Assembly (NCBI GenBank): GCA_017942035.1
Contig: JAGAVG010000055.1
Coordinates: forward strand, 1-52,558
Reading direction: 5' to 3'
Length of the DNA stretch: 52,558 nucleotides
Source: a bacterium
GTDB lineage: Bacteria; Cyanobacteriota; Vampirovibrionia; Gastranaerophilales; Gastranaerophilaceae
In this document: positions 1-48,813 of the stretch, one piece after another
How the letters are laid out: the number at the start of each line of letters is the position of its first letter
Position numbering within the stretch: position 1 is the first letter of the stretch
Translations under genes and position numbers: made by a program
Notes under the pieces: generated by a model
What the model was told of the DNA's origin: nothing
Database searches by the model: none
Seen by the model: the letters and a program-made list of their open reading frames with translations, nothing else

Positions 1-162
1 ATAATTTATATTTTGGTGCGAGTTGGCCTGAAACTCACTAAAACATACCCTTTCAAAATTCAAAAATTCCACAAAAAACAACAAAAGACCACTTGAAATG
101 TGCCGGAAAATATTGTATAATAAGGCTATAAAAAACTCGCATCAAAATATAAAATTTGGTGT
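1..162 (-). repeat. 167-bp inverted-repeat element, copy 1 (cut by window edge)
   Basis: This is the reverse-strand copy of an element found again at 20230, 39200 and 47761. The first five bases of the element lie outside the window; with them the length would be 167 bp, as in the other copies. Both ends carry a roughly 27-bp imperfect inverted repeat of the form GCACCA(n)TTTGGTGCGAG. The prepilin-like gene expected downstream of this copy would lie left of position 1, so it cannot be seen. The distal hairpin (139-162) keeps pairing through G-U changes (GCATCAAA against TTTGGTGT). Confidence 0.85.
93..121 (+). promoter_or_regulatory. Promoter inside element copy 1
   Basis: TTGAAA (93-98), a 17-nt spacer, then TATAAT (116-121). 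Initiation near 128 would run straight into the hairpin at 139-162 and a run of eight T (165-172), predicting an RNA of about 45 nt. The same box pair and spacing are present in all four element copies. Confidence 0.6.
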
Positions 163-6955: not shown

Positions 6956-7254
6956 AAGGCCGGAGGTCAAGACAAGCCGAGCAGAGGCATGAGCGAAGCG
7001 AAAGTCGAACAACAATAAGCGGAAACCGCGCTTTTCGCTATTGTTGTGAGCGGTGCCGTTTAGCGCGAGGCGCAGTAGGTAAGCAAATATCGTCATTGCG
7101 AGCGAACGTAGTGAGCGTGCAATCCAGTTATTAATGGTAGACTAAAGTCTACCCTACAAACTTTAAGACGTCAAATTCTTCATTTGTAACGCACTTATCG
7201 TCTTATCGTCCTAAGATACTAAGGCACTAAGTGTCATTGTCCCCCTTGTTAAAC
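6956..7254. repeat. Gap of dispersed repeats
   Basis: No gene seen. Contents in order: a degenerate 'GGTCAAGA..GCAAGCC' unit (6964-6980); the TCATTGCGAGCGAACGTAGTGAGCG-type repeat ending GCAATCCAG (7091-7127); an 18-bp palindrome GGTAGACTAAAGTCTACC (7136-7153), which also occurs at 20638 and 39508; and a 61-bp unit at 7171-7231 ending in ACTAAG iterations that is repeated almost exactly at 9415-9475. Confidence 0.75.
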
Positions 7255-8956: not shown

Positions 8957-9540
8957 TTTTCCTCCAGATTCTTAAGAAAATTATACCAGAAATAATCGAA
9001 AAATAGCATTTTATGTAAATTTATCTATACAAATGGAGTCCGAACAGCATAAAGAATTGGCAGGCAAGTTAATAGAGGAACAGAAGGCCAGATGTCAGGA
9101 AGGCAGGCTGGTATCGTAAAAAAGACGCTAAGATACTAAGACTTTAAGTTGCTAAGTTCTTTACAAAAAAGCTTTATCCCCTCTCCCCTTGTGGGAGAGG
9201 GTTAGGGTGAGGGGTTAAATAAAAGGCGTTAGGATACTAAGACGTTACGTAATAATATGTCATCTTGAACTCGTTTCAGTCATGGTAAGGATTTACGTCA
9301 TTGCGAGGAGTGCAGCAATCCAGTTAAACAATAGGCGCTAAGTCTTTAAGTCTTTAAGACGTTAAGTTCTTTACTGTAAAGAACTTAGCATCTTATCGTC
9401 CTAACGTCCTACCGTCAAATTCTTCATTGGTAACGTACTTATCGTCTTATCATCCTAAGATACTAAGGCACTAAGGATTTACGTAATGTAATCATGTCAT
9501 ACTGAACATCGGATTGCCCTCCGTATTTCTATATTACAAA
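8957..9540. repeat. Repeat-rich intergenic region
   Basis: No conserved gene seen. Contents: an orphan leader-like ORF (9033-9119, listed separately); a CCCTCTCCC..GGGAGAGGG palindrome with TTAGGGTGAGGGG (9177-9216); a TCATTGCGAGGAGTGCAGCAATCCAG unit near 9298-9323; a 12-bp-arm palindrome TAAGTTCTTTAC / GTAAAGAACTTA (9363-9387); the second copy of the 61-bp unit (9415-9475); and pieces of 'ATGTCAT.CTGAAC' repeats near 9258 and 9494. The same units recur around the prepilin-like genes. Confidence 0.75.
9033..9119 (+). other. Orphan ORF resembling the repeat-derived prepilin leader
   Basis: A 28-codon frame starting ATG, containing LIEEQKARCQEGRLVS. This closely resembles the first residues of the prepilin-like protein at 47971 (IEEQKARGQEGKPISS). 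No pilin follows. It is probably a stray copy of the dispersed repeat in which those prepilin genes start, not a functional gene. Confidence 0.5.
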
Positions 9541-20222: not shown

Positions 20223-20262
20223 AAAACTCGCACCAAATTTTATATTTTGGTGCGAGTTTTTT
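20223..20262. terminator. Bidirectional terminator hairpin at outer end of element copy 2
   Basis: 15-bp perfect stem (AAAACTCGCACCAAA / TTTGGTGCGAGTTTT) followed by T6 on the plus strand, so it ends transcription from the aminopeptidase gene. On the minus strand it would stop transcription from the promoter at 20299-20271. Confidence 0.7.
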
Positions 20263-20396
20263 ATAGCCTTATTATACAATATTTTCCACCACATTTCAAG
20301 TGGTGTTTTGTCGTTTTTTGATGATTTTTTGAATTTTAAGAAGGTATGTTTTAGTGGATTTCAGGCCCACTCGCACCAAAATATAAATTATGGTGC
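20230..20396 (+). repeat. 167-bp inverted-repeat element, copy 2
   Basis: Bounded by 27-bp inverted repeats (20230-20256 and 20370-20396) matching at 25 of 27 positions. Inside are a CACCAC/GTGGTG hairpin and T-rich runs. It ends 44 nt before the start of a prepilin-like gene. Same length and arrangement as the copies at 39200 and 47761. Confidence 0.9.
20271..20299 (-). promoter_or_regulatory. Promoter inside element copy 2, pointing away from the prepilin gene
   Basis: On the minus strand TTGAAA (20299-20294), 17-nt spacer, TATAAT (20276-20271). The predicted start near 20264 is followed at once by the hairpin at 20260-20223 and TTTT, giving a predicted RNA of about 45 nt. Confidence 0.6.
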
Positions 20397-20440
20397 ATGA
20401 ATTTAAAGAGTCGTTTAAGTCTGAAAAGGAGGCTGAAAGG

Positions 20441-21340
20441 ATGAATATATTTGAAGAACAGAGGATTAGAGGTCAGGAAGGCAAGCCGATATCGTCATTA
20501 ACTACCCTCGCCCCTTGTGGGAGAGGGCAGGGTGAGGGGTCAAAATTGTTACATAAAACCCTCTCCCGAATTTGTAAGTTCGCATTCTGCTCACTAACAA
20601 ATTCAACCCTCTCACATAGAGAGAGGGTAAGAAGTAGGGTAGACTTTAGTCTACCGGAAAAACTGGATTGCCGCCTTGCTGGTCGTCGTAAAACCGCGTT
20701 TACATTGGCGGAAGTCTTAATCACTCTCGGAATAATTGGGGTTGTGGCGGCGATGACCATGCCAACTTTAATTCAAAAGCATCAGGAGCGGGTTACGGTT
20801 AATAAAGTTAAGAAGTTCTATTCTGTCATGTCGCAGGCGCAATTATTAGCAATCAAAGATCATGGTTATTTAGATGAGTGGGATGTGTCGGATGGACGTA
20901 CAAAAGAAAGTGCTGAAAAACTCGCGGAGTATCTTAAACCTTATTTAAAAATAGCCAAAGATTGTGGTACATCTAGCGGCTGTCTTCAATACGGCAAACC
21001 AATACAATTGCTAAATGGTGAAGAGCACTTCAATTACGATTCAGACAACAGATTTTATAAATTAATTTTAAACGATGGGAGTTATATATGGTTAAGGGCA
21101 TCTATGGGTGCATATTGTGCAAGTTTAGATAACAATATTTTAAATGCTTGCGGGGCTGTATGGATAGATATTAACGGTAAAACTCCTCCTAATACATTGG
21201 GAAGAGACATATTATATTTTATAATGACAAAAAATAGTCTTAAACCCTCGGCTATAAATGATTGTAATCTGAATTCTTATGGTTGGGATTGTGCTGGATG
21301 GATTTTAGAAAAAGGCAATATGGATTATTTGAAAAAATAA
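20441..21340 (+). CDS. Type IV prepilin-like protein with an 86-residue repeat-derived leader
   Basis: 299 residues from the ATG at 20441, which has AAGGAGG eight bases upstream; an earlier in-frame ATG at 20390 lies in the inverted repeat. The class III signal TAFTLAEVLITLGIIG starts only at residue about 85 (cleavage expected A^F, Glu at +5), followed by a hydrophobic helix and a globular domain with several cysteines (DCGTSSGCLQYG, NACGAVWIDINGK). The leader (EEQRIRGQEGKPISS..., HRERVRSRVD) is encoded by dispersed repeat DNA, and no ATG, GTG or TTG start lies closer to the signal. Close paralogue of the protein at 47971. Likely processed by a prepilin peptidase and exported as a minor pilin or pseudopilin. 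Confidence 0.8.
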   Translation: MNIFEEQRIRGQEGKPISSLTTLAPCGRGQGEGSKLLHKTLSRICKFAFCSLTNSTLSHRERVRSRVDFSLPEKLDCRLAGRRKTAFTLAEVLITLGIIGVVAAMTMPTLIQKHQERVTVNKVKKFYSVMSQAQLLAIKDHGYLDEWDVSDGRTKESAEKLAEYLKPYLKIAKDCGTSSGCLQYGKPIQLLNGEEHFNYDSDNRFYKLILNDGSYIWLRASMGAYCASLDNNILNACGAVWIDINGKTPPNTLGRDILYFIMTKNSLKPSAINDCNLNSYGWDCAGWILEKGNMDYLKK

Positions 21341-30305: not shown

Positions 30306-30478
30306 GGACTTATATACAAGTTTACACAGGAATAGTCCAAATATGTCATGCTGAACTCGTTTCAGCATCTCGTGATACAGAGATTCCGAAACAAGTTCGG
30401 AATGACATGAAACACGGAGGTCAATCCGACGTTCAGGGTGACATATAAGTAACGTTTTGTGTAAAATTGTATATAGAT
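30306..30478. repeat. MITE-like element, diverged copy
   Basis: Left end GGACTTATATACAAGTTTACAC followed by AGGAATAGTCCAAAT matches, in reverse, the right end of the element at 34697-34838. The right end is a decayed terminal repeat (GTGTAAAATTGTATATAGAT). The interior holds ATGTCATGCTGAACTCGTTTC-type repeats. No ORF; about 173 bp. Confidence 0.75.
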
Positions 30479-32202: not shown

Positions 32203-33291
32203 ATGGAAAGTATGATAACAATTTTATCTTTTTTAGGCGGATTGATAACAGGAGCTGCGGCAGTCGGGATTCCGCTGTGGATTATTAATAAGAATTCAAA
32301 GACAAAGGATGAAACCTTAGACAAAATGATGAATGAGATGAAACTTCATTTTGAAAACACTGCGAACAAGATATTTAAAGAGAGTTCTCAGGAAATGTCT
32401 GAGACAAATAAGGAGAAATTAGAGGAATTTTTCAAACGATTTAGAGATAAGATTGAAGATTTTGAACGCAAAAATAACGAAAATTACGAACAAGAAAAGA
32501 AAAATTTTGTTGTTTTTGACCAGAATATCAAGAATTTTATCGAAGCCGGCAACAAGATTTCCGCGCAGACAACAGCATTATCTAATGTAATGAAATCCGA
32601 TAACAGAAAACAGGGAATATGGGGGGAAATAGTTCTTGAAAAAGTTCTTGAAGCCTCCGGATTGCGAAAAGATGAGGAGTATAAAATTCAATCGGGAATA
32701 GCAGAAGGCCGCCCGGACGCAACTATTTTTCTTCCTCAGGATAGATGTGTTTATATAGATGCAAAAACATCATTTTCATCCTGGGAAAGCTATATTAACT
32801 GCGAAGATGAAGACGAAAAAGCTATTCATTTGAAACAATTTACGGATTCAACAAAAGCCCATATAGCAGGACTTGCCAAAAGAGATTACAGTTCAGAAAT
32901 ACAATCTCCGGATTACGTTTTGATGTTCATTCCGATAGAAAGCTGTTATTCATTGTTGTTTTGTGAAGATTGCGCATTGTGGGAACTTGCCTGGAAAAAT
33001 AAAATCATGCCGGTATCACCTTCAACATTGCTTGCGGCACTAAAGATTATTAACGCATTCCATATTGTTGATCGCCAGAATAAAAATACAATTGAAATTG
33101 CAAATATTTGTTCATCAATGCTTGATAAATTTGCCGCACTTCTTACCGAATTGCTGAAAATCCGCTCAAACCTTGATACAACACTTAAAAAACTTAACGG
33201 AACCGGTAATATAATAAATCAGATAAAACGAATAGAAAAACTCGGAATAAAAATGACAAAAGATTTGCCGGAAATTCCGGAAGAAGAGTAG
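32203..33291 (+). CDS. rmuC: DNA recombination protein RmuC
   Basis: 362 residues from ATG 32203 (GGGGGATATTT upstream). An N-terminal membrane helix (ILSFLGGLITGAAAVGIPLWII), a coiled coil (about 40-130), then the RmuC nuclease-like domain with NRKQGIWGEIVLEKVLEASGL, GRPDATIFLP, DAKTSFSSWESY and LMFIPIESCYSLL. RmuC limits DNA inversions in E. coli. Followed directly by a decayed prepilin module. Confidence 0.92.
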   Translation: MESMITILSFLGGLITGAAAVGIPLWIINKNSKTKDETLDKMMNEMKLHFENTANKIFKESSQEMSETNKEKLEEFFKRFRDKIEDFERKNNENYEQEKKNFVVFDQNIKNFIEAGNKISAQTTALSNVMKSDNRKQGIWGEIVLEKVLEASGLRKDEEYKIQSGIAEGRPDATIFLPQDRCVYIDAKTSFSSWESYINCEDEDEKAIHLKQFTDSTKAHIAGLAKRDYSSEIQSPDYVLMFIPIESCYSLLFCEDCALWELAWKNKIMPVSPSTLLAALKIINAFHIVDRQNKNTIEIANICSSMLDKFAALLTELLKIRSNLDTTLKKLNGTGNIINQIKRIEKLGIKMTKDLPEIPEEE

Positions 33292-33293
33292 AG

Positions 33294-33424
33294 TAACAGA
33301 GGTCAAGAGGTCAGGAAGGCAAGCGAGTTACGTCATTAAATACCCTCTCCCACAAGGGGAGAGGGAGAAAAAGTGTGCTTTTACCCTAGCAGAGGTTCTT
33401 ATCACTCTCGGAGTTAAAAAATAA
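33294..33424 (+). pseudogene. Remnant of a prepilin leader module
   Basis: Starts with the dispersed unit GGTCAAGAGGTCAGGAAGG, then a CCCTCTCCC..GGGAGAGGG palindrome, then in one frame (33374-33424) CAFTLAEVLITLGVKK and a stop. The homology to prepilins breaks off after LITLG, where the helix should continue. There is no start codon in frame. It begins three bases after the rmuC stop. Confidence 0.75.
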
Positions 33425-34696: not shown

Positions 34697-34838
34697 GGGA
34701 CTTATATACAAGTTTACACTAAAATTACCTCAATATGTCACCCTGAACTTGTTTCAGGGTCTCTTCATCATGAGATGCTGAAACGAGTTCAGCATGACAG
34801 ATTTGGACTATTCCTGTGTAAACTTGTATATAAGTCCC
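34697..34838. repeat. MITE-like element with perfect terminal repeats
   Basis: 142 bp with perfect 23-bp terminal inverted repeats (GGGACTTATATACAAG... at 34697-34719; reverse at 34816-34838). The interior has two opposed copies of the ATGTCA..CTGAAC..GTTTCAG repeat, so the whole element is one long fold-back. No ORF, no clear target duplication. A diverged copy lies at 30306-30478. Confidence 0.88.
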
Positions 34839-37591: not shown

Positions 37592-38266
37592 TTACACCTC
37601 AATTCCTTTTTCAATAAGAACATTTTTAAGCATTTCTCTTATCTTAACTTGTTTTGAATGAATGGAATCCATCGCGTTAAGCTTTACAAGCCCAAATTCA
37701 TCCACCATCGCGTTGTATTCCTTGATTACGCGGGATTGGAAGATAATATAGCTTTCGTACGGGTCACTGCTTAATTTCAAATCCATACCGGCCTCATAAA
37801 ATTTTGGCGCGCGGTTAAAACAAATTCTCTCCATTGCATCTTTCGGGTCGATATCAAAATATATTGCCAAATCGGGTTTTATGGCAAAATCGTAAACGTT
37901 ACGAACCCAGTTCGGGTCAACCCCTCTTGCGGCATCACGCGCAAAAGCTGTGTAAGCATATCTATCAGCAAGCACAATAAATCCGGCCTTTAGAGCTGGT
38001 GCAATAACCTGTTTTAACCTATCGGCAAAATCAACCGCATGCAACAGTGAAAAAGTTCGCGGCGAAAGCAGATTTTTTTTCTTCGCAAGCTTTGTAGTCT
38101 GACTGATTAAAGGTGAAGAATTCCACTCGGTAAAAATTACGTCCTGCCCGATTGATTTTAACCAATCCCGCAAAAGCGCAAGTTGAGTGGATTTTCCGGA
38201 ACCGTCAATCCCTTCCACGCAAACAAGTGTGCCTTTCAAATTGTGTTTTTCAGTCAATTTAGCCAA
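37592..38266 (-). CDS. Thymidylate kinase-like protein, first of a tandem pair
   Basis: 224 residues from TTG 38266, chosen because AGAAAGAGG precedes it and the length then matches its neighbour; a longer frame runs upstream inside the nuclease gene. Motifs: VEGIDGSGKSTQLALLRDW, TEWNSSPLI, DRYAYTAFARDAARG, and a C-terminal region similar to the next gene. Overlaps the end of the YhaM-like gene by eight bases. Confidence 0.8.
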   Translation of the reverse strand: MAKLTEKHNLKGTLVCVEGIDGSGKSTQLALLRDWLKSIGQDVIFTEWNSSPLISQTTKLAKKKNLLSPRTFSLLHAVDFADRLKQVIAPALKAGFIVLADRYAYTAFARDAARGVDPNWVRNVYDFAIKPDLAIYFDIDPKDAMERICFNRAPKFYEAGMDLKLSSDPYESYIIFQSRVIKEYNAMVDEFGLVKLNAMDSIHSKQVKIREMLKNVLIEKGIEV

Positions 38267-39110
38267 GTTTTGCCTCTTTCTGTTCAAGCATTGCCACATT
38301 TGTTTTCCCGAATTTTGCCGACAGATTATCAACAATATGAATCAAATACAATTCAGGTTCCAAATCTTTTTCGTTCAAATCAATGATTGCACCCCAATCA
38401 GCTCTGCCGTGATGCGCCGCAATCATTCTGGCAATCTCTTTAAAGCCATTATTCATGCATAGTGTAAAGCCGTATTGTGAATGAGTTATCCAATCTTTTC
38501 TGAAATCTTCATCGTAATCAATAAGGCCGTCTTCAAGGTTAATTTTATACTCGAAAATTTTGCCGATATCGTGAAGTATACAAGCCGCAATCACATTATC
38601 CTTATTGAATTTCCGCAAAAAATGGTCCATATTTAACTCTGCAAACTTAATAACTTCAAGAGTATGAACTAAAAGCCCTCCAATATAGTTATGGTGCATA
38701 ACTTTAGCGGCCGGAGCAACTTTTATTTTTGCCGCATTTTCCGCAAAAAATCCGGCAAGAAAATTTTGTAATTTTTCATCGCTTATAGAATTTATATAGT
38801 CCAAAACTTCGGCAAAAGCTTTTTCTCTCTCATTTTCATCAAGCCCCATTTTTGCTTCTTTTTTTACTTCCAGGGCAGAAATTAGACAGTTATTAAATTT
38901 TTCGTTAAAAGTTGCTGAAACAATTCTCACAAGATTGCCGCATCTAAAGACTTTTGAATCAAAGCGGTTAAGAGTTTCTTCCCATAATATGCAATTCAAA
39001 ATTGAATTATCTTCGGTATTTTTCAATTGAAGCTTTCCCATTTTTGTTCCGGCTTTTGTGTCTCCTATTGAAAAATTTAAAATCTCATAAATTGCTTCTG
39101 TGCTGAACAT
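38259..39110 (-). CDS. YhaM-like 3'-5' exoribonuclease (OB-fold plus HD domain)
   Basis: 283 residues from ATG 39110 (GAAGGAAATTT upstream). The N-terminal OB-fold (GTKMGKLQLKNTEDNSILNCILW... VRIVSATFNE) is followed by an HD domain: HHNYIGGLLVHTLEVIKFAE, AACILHDIGKIFEY, THSQYGFTL, AAHHGRADWGA. The order matches YhaM/Cbf1, which degrades RNA or single-stranded DNA from the 3' end. First gene of an operon with the two kinase paralogues. Confidence 0.87.
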   Translation of the reverse strand: MFSTEAIYEILNFSIGDTKAGTKMGKLQLKNTEDNSILNCILWEETLNRFDSKVFRCGNLVRIVSATFNEKFNNCLISALEVKKEAKMGLDENEREKAFAEVLDYINSISDEKLQNFLAGFFAENAAKIKVAPAAKVMHHNYIGGLLVHTLEVIKFAELNMDHFLRKFNKDNVIAACILHDIGKIFEYKINLEDGLIDYDEDFRKDWITHSQYGFTLCMNNGFKEIARMIAAHHGRADWGAIIDLNEKDLEPELYLIHIVDNLSAKFGKTNVAMLEQKEAKLG

Positions 39111-39192
39111 ATAAATTTCCTTCTCAATCTTATACATTGAAATTCTAACACAAATATATTAAATAATGCTTTTATTGTTAATATTAATTACT

Positions 39193-39232
39193 AAAAAACG
39201 CACCAAATTTTATATTTTGGTGCGAGTTTTTT
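39193..39232. terminator. Bidirectional terminator hairpin, element copy 3
   Basis: CGCACCAAA / TTTGGTGCG stem, flanked by A6 on the left and T6 on the right, so T-runs follow on both strands. Placed at the outer end of the element. Confidence 0.65.
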
Positions 39233-39366
39233 ATAGCCTTATTATACAATATTTTCCACCAATTTTCAAGTGGTGTTTTGTTGTTTTTTGTGAAATTTTT
39301 GAATTTTGAAAGGGTATGTTTTAGTGAATTTCAGGCCAACTCGCACCAAAATATAAATTATGGTGC
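39200..39366 (+). repeat. 167-bp inverted-repeat element, copy 3
   Basis: Terminal repeats at 39200-39226 and 39340-39366 are identical to those of copy 2. Homology to copy 4 continues past the element (ATGAATTTAAAGGATAATTT, then GGAGGATAAAAGT) into the start of the prepilin gene. Confidence 0.9.
39241..39269 (-). promoter_or_regulatory. Promoter inside element copy 3, pointing away from the prepilin gene
   Basis: Minus strand: TTGAAA (39269-39264), 17-nt spacer, TATAAT (39246-39241), followed by the hairpin and T6 at 39224-39193. Confidence 0.6.
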
Positions 39367-39409
39367 ATGAATTTAAAGGATAATTTAAGAAAATATGGAG
39401 GATAAAAGT

Positions 39410-40255
39410 ATGATAACAGAGGATCAGAGGGCAAGAAGACAGGAAGGCAAGCAGGTAAACCCCTCACCCCAGCCCTCTCCCACAAGGGGCGAGGGAGTAA
39501 ATAGTAGGGTAGACTTTAGTCTACCATTAATAACTGGATTGCCACGCTCACTCCGTTCGCTCGCAATGACGAAACCCGCGTTCACTTTGGCGGAAGTTTT
39601 GATTACTCTCGGGATAATCGGTATTGTGGCGGCGATGACGTTGCCGGCGCTTATTCAAAATCATAGAAATCAAGTAGCCGAAACAAGGCTTAAGAAATTC
39701 TATTCAGCAATCAATCAGGCGATTATTGCATCTGAAGCTGTTAATGGTGACAGGACAGAATGGCATTCTTCATCAGTATATGATGTTCCGGAAAGCGGGC
39801 GCAATGAGCAAGCTAAAGTCTGGTTTGACACTTATTTAAAGCCTTATATAAAGGTTATTGATGAGGGTTACAGCTCGGATAATCGCTTTATAGTTTACTT
39901 TTCTGATGGTTCAGCTTTAAAGTTTCTGAATGATGATTGTTTAAGAGATTTTTTATTTTATATAGGAAATCCGGAAAAGTGTGACAACAAAATATCTAAT
40001 CCGTATGGACGCTGTAAATTTGCTTTTCTTTATGCTCCCGGGTACTCTGATCACTCATACTGGAGCTATTCAGGCAGAAATTTTGAACCATATAAATATC
40101 TGTGGAACGGTAATATAACTTCATTATATACCGGTGAAGGAGTATATACCAGTACTGCTTGTAATAGTAGCGGCGACGGGAGATACTGTTCCGCAATTAT
40201 TCAATACAATAACTGGAAGATTCCGAAAGATTATCCGAGAAAAATTTTATACTAG
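39410..40255 (+). CDS. Type IV prepilin-like protein with repeat-derived leader
   Basis: 281 residues from ATG 39410, eight bases after GGAGG. The prepilin signal PAFTLAEVLITLGIIG has Phe at residue 58, so the leader would be 57 residues, encoded by the same dispersed repeats as its relatives (EDQRARRQEGK, ...PSPTRGEG, LPRSLRSLAMTK). A second ATG at 39566, supplied by the GCAATGACG end of a repeat, would give a classic five-residue leader (MTKPA) but has no ribosome site. The C-terminal domain (KFYSAINQAIIASEAVNGDRTEWHS, FIVYFSDGSALKFLNDDC) differs from the other two proteins. Probably a minor pilin or pseudopilin. Confidence 0.82.
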   Translation: MITEDQRARRQEGKQVNPSPQPSPTRGEGVNSRVDFSLPLITGLPRSLRSLAMTKPAFTLAEVLITLGIIGIVAAMTLPALIQNHRNQVAETRLKKFYSAINQAIIASEAVNGDRTEWHSSSVYDVPESGRNEQAKVWFDTYLKPYIKVIDEGYSSDNRFIVYFSDGSALKFLNDDCLRDFLFYIGNPEKCDNKISNPYGRCKFAFLYAPGYSDHSYWSYSGRNFEPYKYLWNGNITSLYTGEGVYTSTACNSSGDGRYCSAIIQYNNWKIPKDYPRKILY

Positions 40256-47753: not shown

Positions 47754-47793
47754 AAAAAACGCACCAAATTTTATATTTTGGTGCGAGTTTTTT
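47754..47793. terminator. Bidirectional terminator hairpin, element copy 4
   Basis: CGCACCAAA / TTTGGTGCG stem, A6 before and T6 after. Serves the gene at 47142 on the plus strand and the element's own promoter on the minus strand. Confidence 0.65.
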
Positions 47794-47927
47794 ATAGCCT
47801 TATTATACAATATTTTGGGACACTTTTCAAGTGCTCATTTTGATTTTTTAGGTGATTTTTTGAATTTTGAAATGGTATGTTTTAGTGAGTTTCAGGCTTA
47901 CATGCATCAAAATATAAAAAATGGTGC
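47761..47927 (+). repeat. 167-bp inverted-repeat element, copy 4
   Basis: Left terminal repeat 47761-47787 is identical to copies 2 and 3; the right one (47901-47927) has diverged (CATGCATCAAAATATAAAAA...). Same length. The inner hairpin differs in sequence (CACTT / AAGTG), yet the -35 and -10 boxes are unchanged. Confidence 0.88.
47802..47830 (-). promoter_or_regulatory. Promoter inside element copy 4, pointing away from the prepilin gene
   Basis: Minus strand: TTGAAA (47830-47825), 17-nt spacer whose sequence differs from the other copies, TATAAT (47807-47802), then the hairpin and T6. Confidence 0.6.
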
Positions 47928-47970: not shown

Positions 47971-48813
47971 ATGAATATAGAAGAACAGAAGGCAAGAGGT
48001 CAGGAGGGCAAGCCGATATCGTCATTAAATACCCTCGCCCCTTGTGGGAGAGGGCAGGGTGAGGGGTCAAAGTCATTACATAAAACCCTCTCCCGAATTT
48101 GTATGTTCGCATACTGCTCACTAACAAATTCAACCCTCTCACAAAGAGAGAGGGTAAATAGCAAGGCCGCATTCACTTTGGCCGAAGTTTTAATCACCCT
48201 AGGGATAATCGGGGTTGTTGCGGCGATGACGTTACCTTCTTTAATTCAAAAGCATCAAGAGCGGGTTACGGTTAACAAGGTTAAGAAATTTTATTCTGTC
48301 ATGTCTCAGGCACAATTATTAGCAATCAAAGACCATGGTTATTTAGATGAATGGGATGTGCCTGACGGAACAACAAAAGAAAGTGCAGAAAAATTCATGA
48401 GTTATCTCAAGCCGTATTTAAAAATAGCAAGAGATTGCGGTACTTCTGCAGGATGTCTTGAGTATTCTCAAACTACTGTTAAATATCTTAATGGTACTCC
48501 AAGAAATTTAAATTATGATACAAATAATAAGTACTATAAATTAATTTTAAACGATGGAACTTATATGTGGTTAAGAACTGTAACAGGTGCGTATTGTGCA
48601 AATCCAGAGAGTAAAGAATCTTGTGCGACTGTATGGATCGATGTTAATGGAAAAAATCCGCCTAATACAATAGGACGTGATATTTTTAATTTTGGGATTA
48701 ATAAAAATAATGTGAGACCTACGGGTAATAATGGTGATTGCAGGCTTAATGGCGCCGGTTGGAGCTGTGCTGAATATGTTTTACAAGGCAATATGGATTA
48801 TTTGAAAAAATAG
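47971..48813 (+). CDS. Type IV prepilin-like protein with repeat-derived leader, paralogue of 20441
   Basis: 280 residues from ATG 47971, eight bases after GGAGG. The signal AAFTLAEVLITLGIIG has Phe at residue 68, giving a 67-residue leader. An internal ATG at 48103 would give a 23-residue leader but lacks a ribosome site and is a Lys codon in the paralogue. The mature part is very similar to the protein at 20441 (QKHQERVTVNKVKKFYSVMS, YLKPYLKIA, DCGTSAGCLEY), but diverges in the C-terminal third (NNVRPTGNNGDCRLNGAGWS). Four cysteines may form disulphides after export. Confidence 0.82.
   Translation: MNIEEQKARGQEGKPISSLNTLAPCGRGQGEGSKSLHKTLSRICMFAYCSLTNSTLSQRERVNSKAAFTLAEVLITLGIIGVVAAMTLPSLIQKHQERVTVNKVKKFYSVMSQAQLLAIKDHGYLDEWDVPDGTTKESAEKFMSYLKPYLKIARDCGTSAGCLEYSQTTVKYLNGTPRNLNYDTNNKYYKLILNDGTYMWLRTVTGAYCANPESKESCATVWIDVNGKNPPNTIGRDIFNFGINKNNVRPTGNNGDCRLNGAGWSCAEYVLQGNMDYLKK

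Follow-up and report, generated by a model that had tools for sequence, protein, structure and literature searches.

A predicted invertible promoter of prepilin genes, present in at least 111 near-identical copies in a Gastranaerophilales genome

Promoter invertons, tyrosine invertases and their control of surface genes are already known. In Bacteroides fragilis, a single enzyme, Mpi, reportedly controls many dispersed surface-gene promoters in trans, and an arrangement of this kind, one enzyme and many dispersed surface promoters, is proposed below for the genome analysed here. According to passages of one report (PMC6083910), the Escherichia coli promoters at fimS (FimB/FimE), ipuS and hyxS are inverted by small tyrosine recombinases and control surface structures; the switches there number one or a few, lie near their recombinases and act on chaperone-usher fimbriae or an autotransporter. 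Passages of another report, on a defined gut community (PMC11892184), describe groups of invertons that share an inverted-repeat sequence and are tied to tyrosine recombinases and surface genes; the largest homologous group comprises 72 invertons community-wide, and a single genome carries up to 181 of all kinds. The terms 'Pilin' and 'Melainabacteria' are absent from the main text of the latter.

The window, that is, the whole stretch of 52,558 nucleotides that was analysed, is one complete contig (C4) of a draft genome assembly, here called G000 (1,994,118 bases in 84 contigs). With a probability that we put at about 90%, the element at 39200-39366 is an inverton, an invertible promoter by which expression of a prepilin gene varies in phase, and it belongs to a set of at least 111 nearly identical switches. 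This reading is preferred because promoter inversion accounts for all parts of the element. The inverted pair of sites, a conserved predicted promoter, asymmetric T-runs, both orientations within one assembly and the downstream prepilin genes can be read directly from the DNA. As with the E. coli switches, a small tyrosine recombinase is present in G000 and the promoters appear to serve surface structures. Unlike those switches, as described in the cited passages, the elements form one large group, their targets are type IV prepilin-like, and their sites are longer and different. At least 111 members of one group are present in one genome, as opposed to the 72 given for the whole gut community in those parts of PMC11892184.

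Within the literature searched, four features are new: the occurrence in this lineage, prepilin genes as targets, a homologous group this large inside a single genome, and a recombination site used as an OFF-state terminator. No inverton reports for Gastranaerophilales or Melainabacteria were found in that literature, subscription journals lying mostly outside its scope. One flagellin paper contains both 'Melainabacteria' and 'phase variation'.

Paired sites, copy number and orientation

The ends of the element, taken for terminal repeats in an earlier note on this DNA, are a pair of inverted recombination sites, each consisting of two 9-bp arms around TTTATA (Table 1), and a predicted promoter lies in the segment between them, the layout of an inverton. 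The note had overlooked both this pairing and the fact that some copies in the genome are inverted. Read inward, the right end is GCACCATAA-TTTATA-TTTTGGTGC; both ends have the inner arm and core in common, and the outer arm is set by the flank, with a fixed difference by side. Core-to-core distances in the 89 complete OFF copies range from 148 to 150 bp, and 85 of these copies have 149 bp. The note had also remarked that the complement of the hairpin occurs near the prepilin starts, which made antisense control seem plausible. The complement is present, but the antisense meaning falls away: both ends copy one nearly palindromic recombination site, so that each end is approximately its own complement. 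Sites of this 9-6-9 form with CATAA beside the core resemble dif. The chromosomal dif motif was tried as the origin of the sites and rejected (11 matches versus 9 in the control).

Table 1. Features of the element at 39200-39366, of the other copies in the window and of the candidate recombinase (window positions unless a contig is named)
Feature	Position	Strand	Remarks
Copy 1 of the putative inverton	1..162		Reversed in window; contig end cuts gene-side site; far-side site 139-162
Copy 2 of the putative inverton, OFF	20230..20396		Sites 20230-20253 and 20373-20396
Prepilin ORF of copy 2	20390-21340	+	
Neighbouring gene past 39193	38259-39137	-	
Outer T6 run	39193..39198	-	Would end the OFF-state RNA; from sequence
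Left (far-side) site	39200..39223		GCACCAAAT-TTTATA-TTTTGGTGC; would double as terminator stem of the parked promoter
Putative invertible segment, OFF here	39209..39357		149 bp core to core
Inner T6 run	39227..39232	+	Would move with the promoter; from sequence
Predicted -10 box	39241..39246	-	TATAAT; predicted start near 39234
Predicted -35 box	39264..39269	-	TTGAAA; consensus match
Right (gene-side) site	39343..39366		GCACCAAAA-TATAAA-TTATGGTGC; no outside T-run
Prepilin gene of the 39200-39366 copy	39410..40255	+	DUF6613; N_methyl just under cut-off
Copy 4 of the putative inverton, OFF	47761..47927		Sites 47761-47784 and 47904-47927
Prepilin ORF of copy 4	47971-48813	+	
Small tyrosine recombinase	C69:88163-88705		181 aa, FimB-sized; PF00589, little beyond the catalytic domain

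A 32-nt core pattern of the element gave 112 matches in G000 with up to three mismatches and none when reversed as a control; from stretches fetched around the listed matches, 111 cores were read, that is, at least 111 copies in 1.99 Mb. The exact core had no match in genome_contigs or viral_contigs, collections from which the species itself may be absent. Among relatives, 4 of 38 gave weak and short DNA matches only (26-45 nt); two such matches, L145 and L146, were considered as the same element and dismissed, as they look like ordinary promoters. Identical 80-nt interiors are common to nine sets of loci (C4/C11/C60/C84, C9/C23/C53/C84 and three copies in C75 are among them), with 89 distinct interiors among 103 copies, which indicates that copies exchange or convert sequence; such exchange could be the source of some odd junctions. 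Contigs C1 and C17, which have a common interior and, by our own count, a 141-nt overlap, may be two sides of one locus, but identical interiors occur at several loci. The window also holds repeats of other kinds: a 63-nt direct repeat (7169-7231 and 9413-9475, 2.2 kb apart, 95% identical), a 103-nt inverted repeat (30306-30408 and 34735-34837, 4.3 kb apart, 90% complementary) and, beside the latter, a close inverted pair of 67 nt (34697-34763 and 34772-34838).

When the 111 cores were sorted, 89 proved to be OFF (far-side end, then gene-side end), one ON (C77), two had the far-side end twice (C29 and C82), and 19 were cut or unclassed at one end or at both. Among copies with two distinct ends, then, 89 of 90 have the promoter aimed away from the prepilin gene and into a terminator. 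The exception, in the interior of contig C77, is a complete inverted copy with its promoter toward the gene; a prepilin gene lies on one side of it and, on the other, a gene that we take from its sequence to encode a YchF-like GTPase. Further inverted junctions are found in C1, where the promoter half is joined to the gene side, and C47, where the far side is joined to the non-promoter half (both among the 19), as well as in C27, which resembles C1 but has too little core to be counted among the 111. In C29 and C82 one flank is joined to both ends of the same segment, exactly at the core, and in C29 the two flanks agree throughout the 103 bases that remain before the contig ends. Only with both orientations among the reads could such a path be assembled; that an amplification fold-back should land exactly on the core at two loci would be unexpected. 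Both orientations are thus seen between loci and by assembly. Counted by pattern, OFF junctions number 98 on the flank side and 88 on the gene side, and ON junctions 4 and 3, each including C77; most of the inverted junctions are at contig ends of the draft assembly, where errors are commonest.

Promoter, terminator and prepilin targets

The predicted promoter (39269-39241, minus strand) has 11 of 12 matches to the sigma-70 consensus, the best of the region. The earlier note had found TTGAAA-17-TATAAT kept in the four elements of the window. Examined genome-wide for loss of the boxes, the other copies retain them: all 110 scored copies have TATAAT (111 cores read, of at least 111), and 109 of these 110 have TTGAAA at spacer 17, the promoter being called by consensus only. 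Toward the gene, the best sigma-70 score as assembled is 8/12 (67 copies) or 9/12 (22 copies); after inversion it is 11/12 in each of the 89 complete OFF copies.

The first feature after the promoter is the hairpin at 39199-39224, a terminator-like match on both strands, after which the minus strand has T6 (39198-39193). The outward anatomy that had been described, promoter, terminal-repeat hairpin, T-run and short RNA, is therefore borne out, with a predicted RNA of about 40 nt, and the changes in the copy 1 hairpin do preserve pairing through G-U. Since an inner T6 also adjoins the left site, its hairpin would act as a terminator in the opposite direction too. Beyond the outer arm, T-runs of four or more are seen in 101 of 105 far-side ends and in 0 of 96 gene-side ends; by this asymmetry, a parked promoter meets a terminator, whereas a flipped one would read through. 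That a promoter which apparently makes nothing is nevertheless conserved would be explained by the recombination site doubling as a terminator. Furthermore, the neighbouring gene past 39193 has the same orientation as the parked promoter, and the terminator would therefore shield this neighbour as well. A palindrome, CACTTTTCAAGTG, overlaps the -35 box (39252-39275, at the same place in other copies) and is exact in 44 of the 111 copies; it could be an operator through which one regulator acts on every copy.

We propose that a small tyrosine recombinase would recombine the two inverted sites (arm-TTTATA-arm) and flip the 149 bp between them. In the OFF form, that of the window copies, the promoter would face away and transcription would end about 40 nt on, at the left site and the outer T-run; the resulting RNA may be a by-product of this state. 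In the ON form, the promoter would face the gene and the transcript would pass the right-site hairpin, which has no T-run, into the prepilin gene. Inversion would in this way switch prepilin expression, with few copies ON at any one time.

The next gene is a prepilin in all 82 copies with a readable gene side (79 called by a motif script and three variant motifs by eye); 14 further copies were too short. For the copy at 39200-39366, the start of the gene was deduced from GGAGG at 39397-39401, the ORF being listed from 39395. Pfam N_methyl is above its cut-off in two of the three window prepilin genes and narrowly below it in the third. At prepilin genes of relatives, no invertons were found in 29 loci at two stringencies; the laxer of these recovered 42 of 48 G000 copies as a positive control. 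Dispersed repeats (the CCCTCTCCC...GGGAGAGGG type and GGTAGACTTTAGTCTACC) are seen at 20480-20660, 33289-33365, 39440-39570 and 47978-48166. Placed in prepilin coding frames after the start but ahead of the N-methylation motif, they make the leader peptides very long.

A candidate recombinase and its relatives

G000 has five matches to PF00589 and six to PF00239. A small serine invertase of the Mpi or Hin type has about 200 aa; the frames with PF00239 matches are 373 to 618 aa long, which sets the genome apart from B. fragilis, where Mpi is a serine recombinase acting on polysaccharide promoters. The PF00589 matches comprise two XerC/XerD-like proteins, two other larger tyrosine recombinases and the small enzyme of contig C69. 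The alignment of the latter shows the conserved tyrosine-recombinase residues: an Arg, a His-x-x-Arg, a His and a Tyr. NCBIfam models named 'tyrosine-type DNA invertase' match it below their cut-offs. It is thus a small tyrosine recombinase as in fim-type systems; no inverted-repeat pair or inverton was found beside it, and for this reason the system is filed as a variant and not as a fim-type locus. Judging from relatives that stand beside nearly the same sites, the C69 enzyme is likely the invertase of these sites, and we infer that it works in trans on all copies.

Close homologues of this enzyme are patchy among relatives, and most of the named ones are from Candidatus Gastranaerophilales, which suggests the same lineage for G000. 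An inverted-repeat pair directly follows the homologue in 24 of the 52 loci with at least 450 nt downstream (0 in shuffles), although the pair at L253, of greater length and more distant from the gene, may be of another kind. Beyond these pairs, several genes look by eye like glycosyltransferase or other polysaccharide genes; a second small recombinase is present at L243, L244, L247 and L262, and a prepilin gene at L269 and L227. A tree of 53 recombinases places the G000 enzyme in a group of ten (support 97/84), eight of which adjoin such sites; five of these eight are near-copies, and the site-bearing L300 and L246 fall outside the group. A small tyrosine recombinase followed by an inverted-repeat pair is found at L190, L191, L194, L228, L237-L240, L243, L244, L246, L247, L249, L255 and L258-L263, many of these with polysaccharide-type genes or a second recombinase; they are probably phase-variable surface loci in many Gastranaerophilales.

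Two loci of bacterium RGIG9312, from yak (L269 and L227), have the order recombinase, inverton, prepilin. Their recombinases are 59-61% identical to that of G000, the site arms are near-identical, and the promoter inverton lies directly before the prepilin gene; the site beside the L269 recombinase, ACATCATAA-TATTTA-TTTTGATGT, is close to the G000 site. L269 is ON-like; in its OFF-like form, the L227 promoter likewise points into a terminator-like hairpin. The difference is that each recombinase there adjoins its own inverton, whereas the G000 enzyme stands alone, with at least 111 dispersed invertons.

Across the order, the site pattern CAYCATAA-N6-TTTTGRTG is present in 26 of 383 genomes (reversed control in 4), with 95 matches in G000 versus 1 to 7 in each other pattern-bearing genome. 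Outside G000, 29 site loci were found, seven with a small recombinase within 700 bp and 22 with none so near. Some of the seven have a partner site 143-165 bp off, and some sites among the 22 may be unrelated. One genome, G245, has seven sites with one identical spacer, including L287, which has a partner site 145 bp away; these are perhaps a smaller dispersed family.

Alternative explanations and implications

The regulatory or antisense RNA suggested earlier, about 40 nt long, produced from the promoter-terminator pair and functional through pairing with prepilin leaders, seems to us highly improbable. A promoter and terminator suited to a short RNA are indeed present and conserved, and the fold is stable (-14.4 kcal/mol for a 49-nt stretch versus a shuffle mean of -4.2; z -5.4). 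However, the complementarity is a consequence of the palindromic site, inversion fully explains the promoter, the sites and the T-run asymmetry, and for a trans-acting RNA it would be odd to have 111 gene copies, every one ahead of a prepilin. The inverted copy C77, the further inverted junctions and the recombinase evidence also favour inversion. A small RNA or riboswitch was accordingly rejected, the window having no Rfam match. The alternative suggestion of a decoy promoter came near to what we call the parked promoter, but its function is best explained by promoter inversion. Equally slight is the chance that a MITE-like mobile element or other dispersed repeat lies before the prepilin genes and carries an outward promoter by accident. 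Dispersion in at least 111 copies with inverted ends would suit such an element, as would the unrelated far-side flanks (mean identity 30%); yet the flanks beyond the gene-side site are on average 59% alike, which would follow from joint duplication of promoter and gene, and together with the prepilin gene that is next in every assessable copy this indicates that the two spread together. The outer arms, moreover, differ by side in a fixed manner.

It is also very unlikely that the system is a relic or an artefact, with sites that have lost the capacity to recombine and a few inverted copies that stem from old events or from faulty assembly. The preponderance of OFF copies and the position of most ON junctions at contig ends would fit this. 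Against it stand the tight conservation of promoter, sites and T-runs, the junctions of one flank with both segment ends, exact to the core, in C29 and C82, the position of C77 within its contig, and the presence in G000 of an intact recombinase with the conserved residues. A rather unlikely variant keeps the same inverton and assigns it to XerC/XerD or to one of the two larger tyrosine recombinases in place of the C69 enzyme. The dif-like form of the sites and the presence of XerC/XerD-like proteins in G000 argue for it; against it, Xer-like proteins also occur in relatives, yet the site pattern is confined to a small share of the order's genomes, and it is relatives of the C69 enzyme that adjoin such sites.

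Returning to an inverton served by the C69 enzyme, we would give slightly less than even odds to a fuller scenario. One unlinked, FimB-sized recombinase would flip more than 110 prepilin promoters at a low rate, and each cell would show one or a few of more than 110 surface pilins, which would make the system a combinatorial repertoire generator; the far-side sites would silence the parked promoters as terminators. If the switch works as read, the outcome would be a very large, shuffled display of pilus-like proteins, and a pilin repertoire of this size bears on how a little-studied gut lineage meets its hosts, phages and neighbours.
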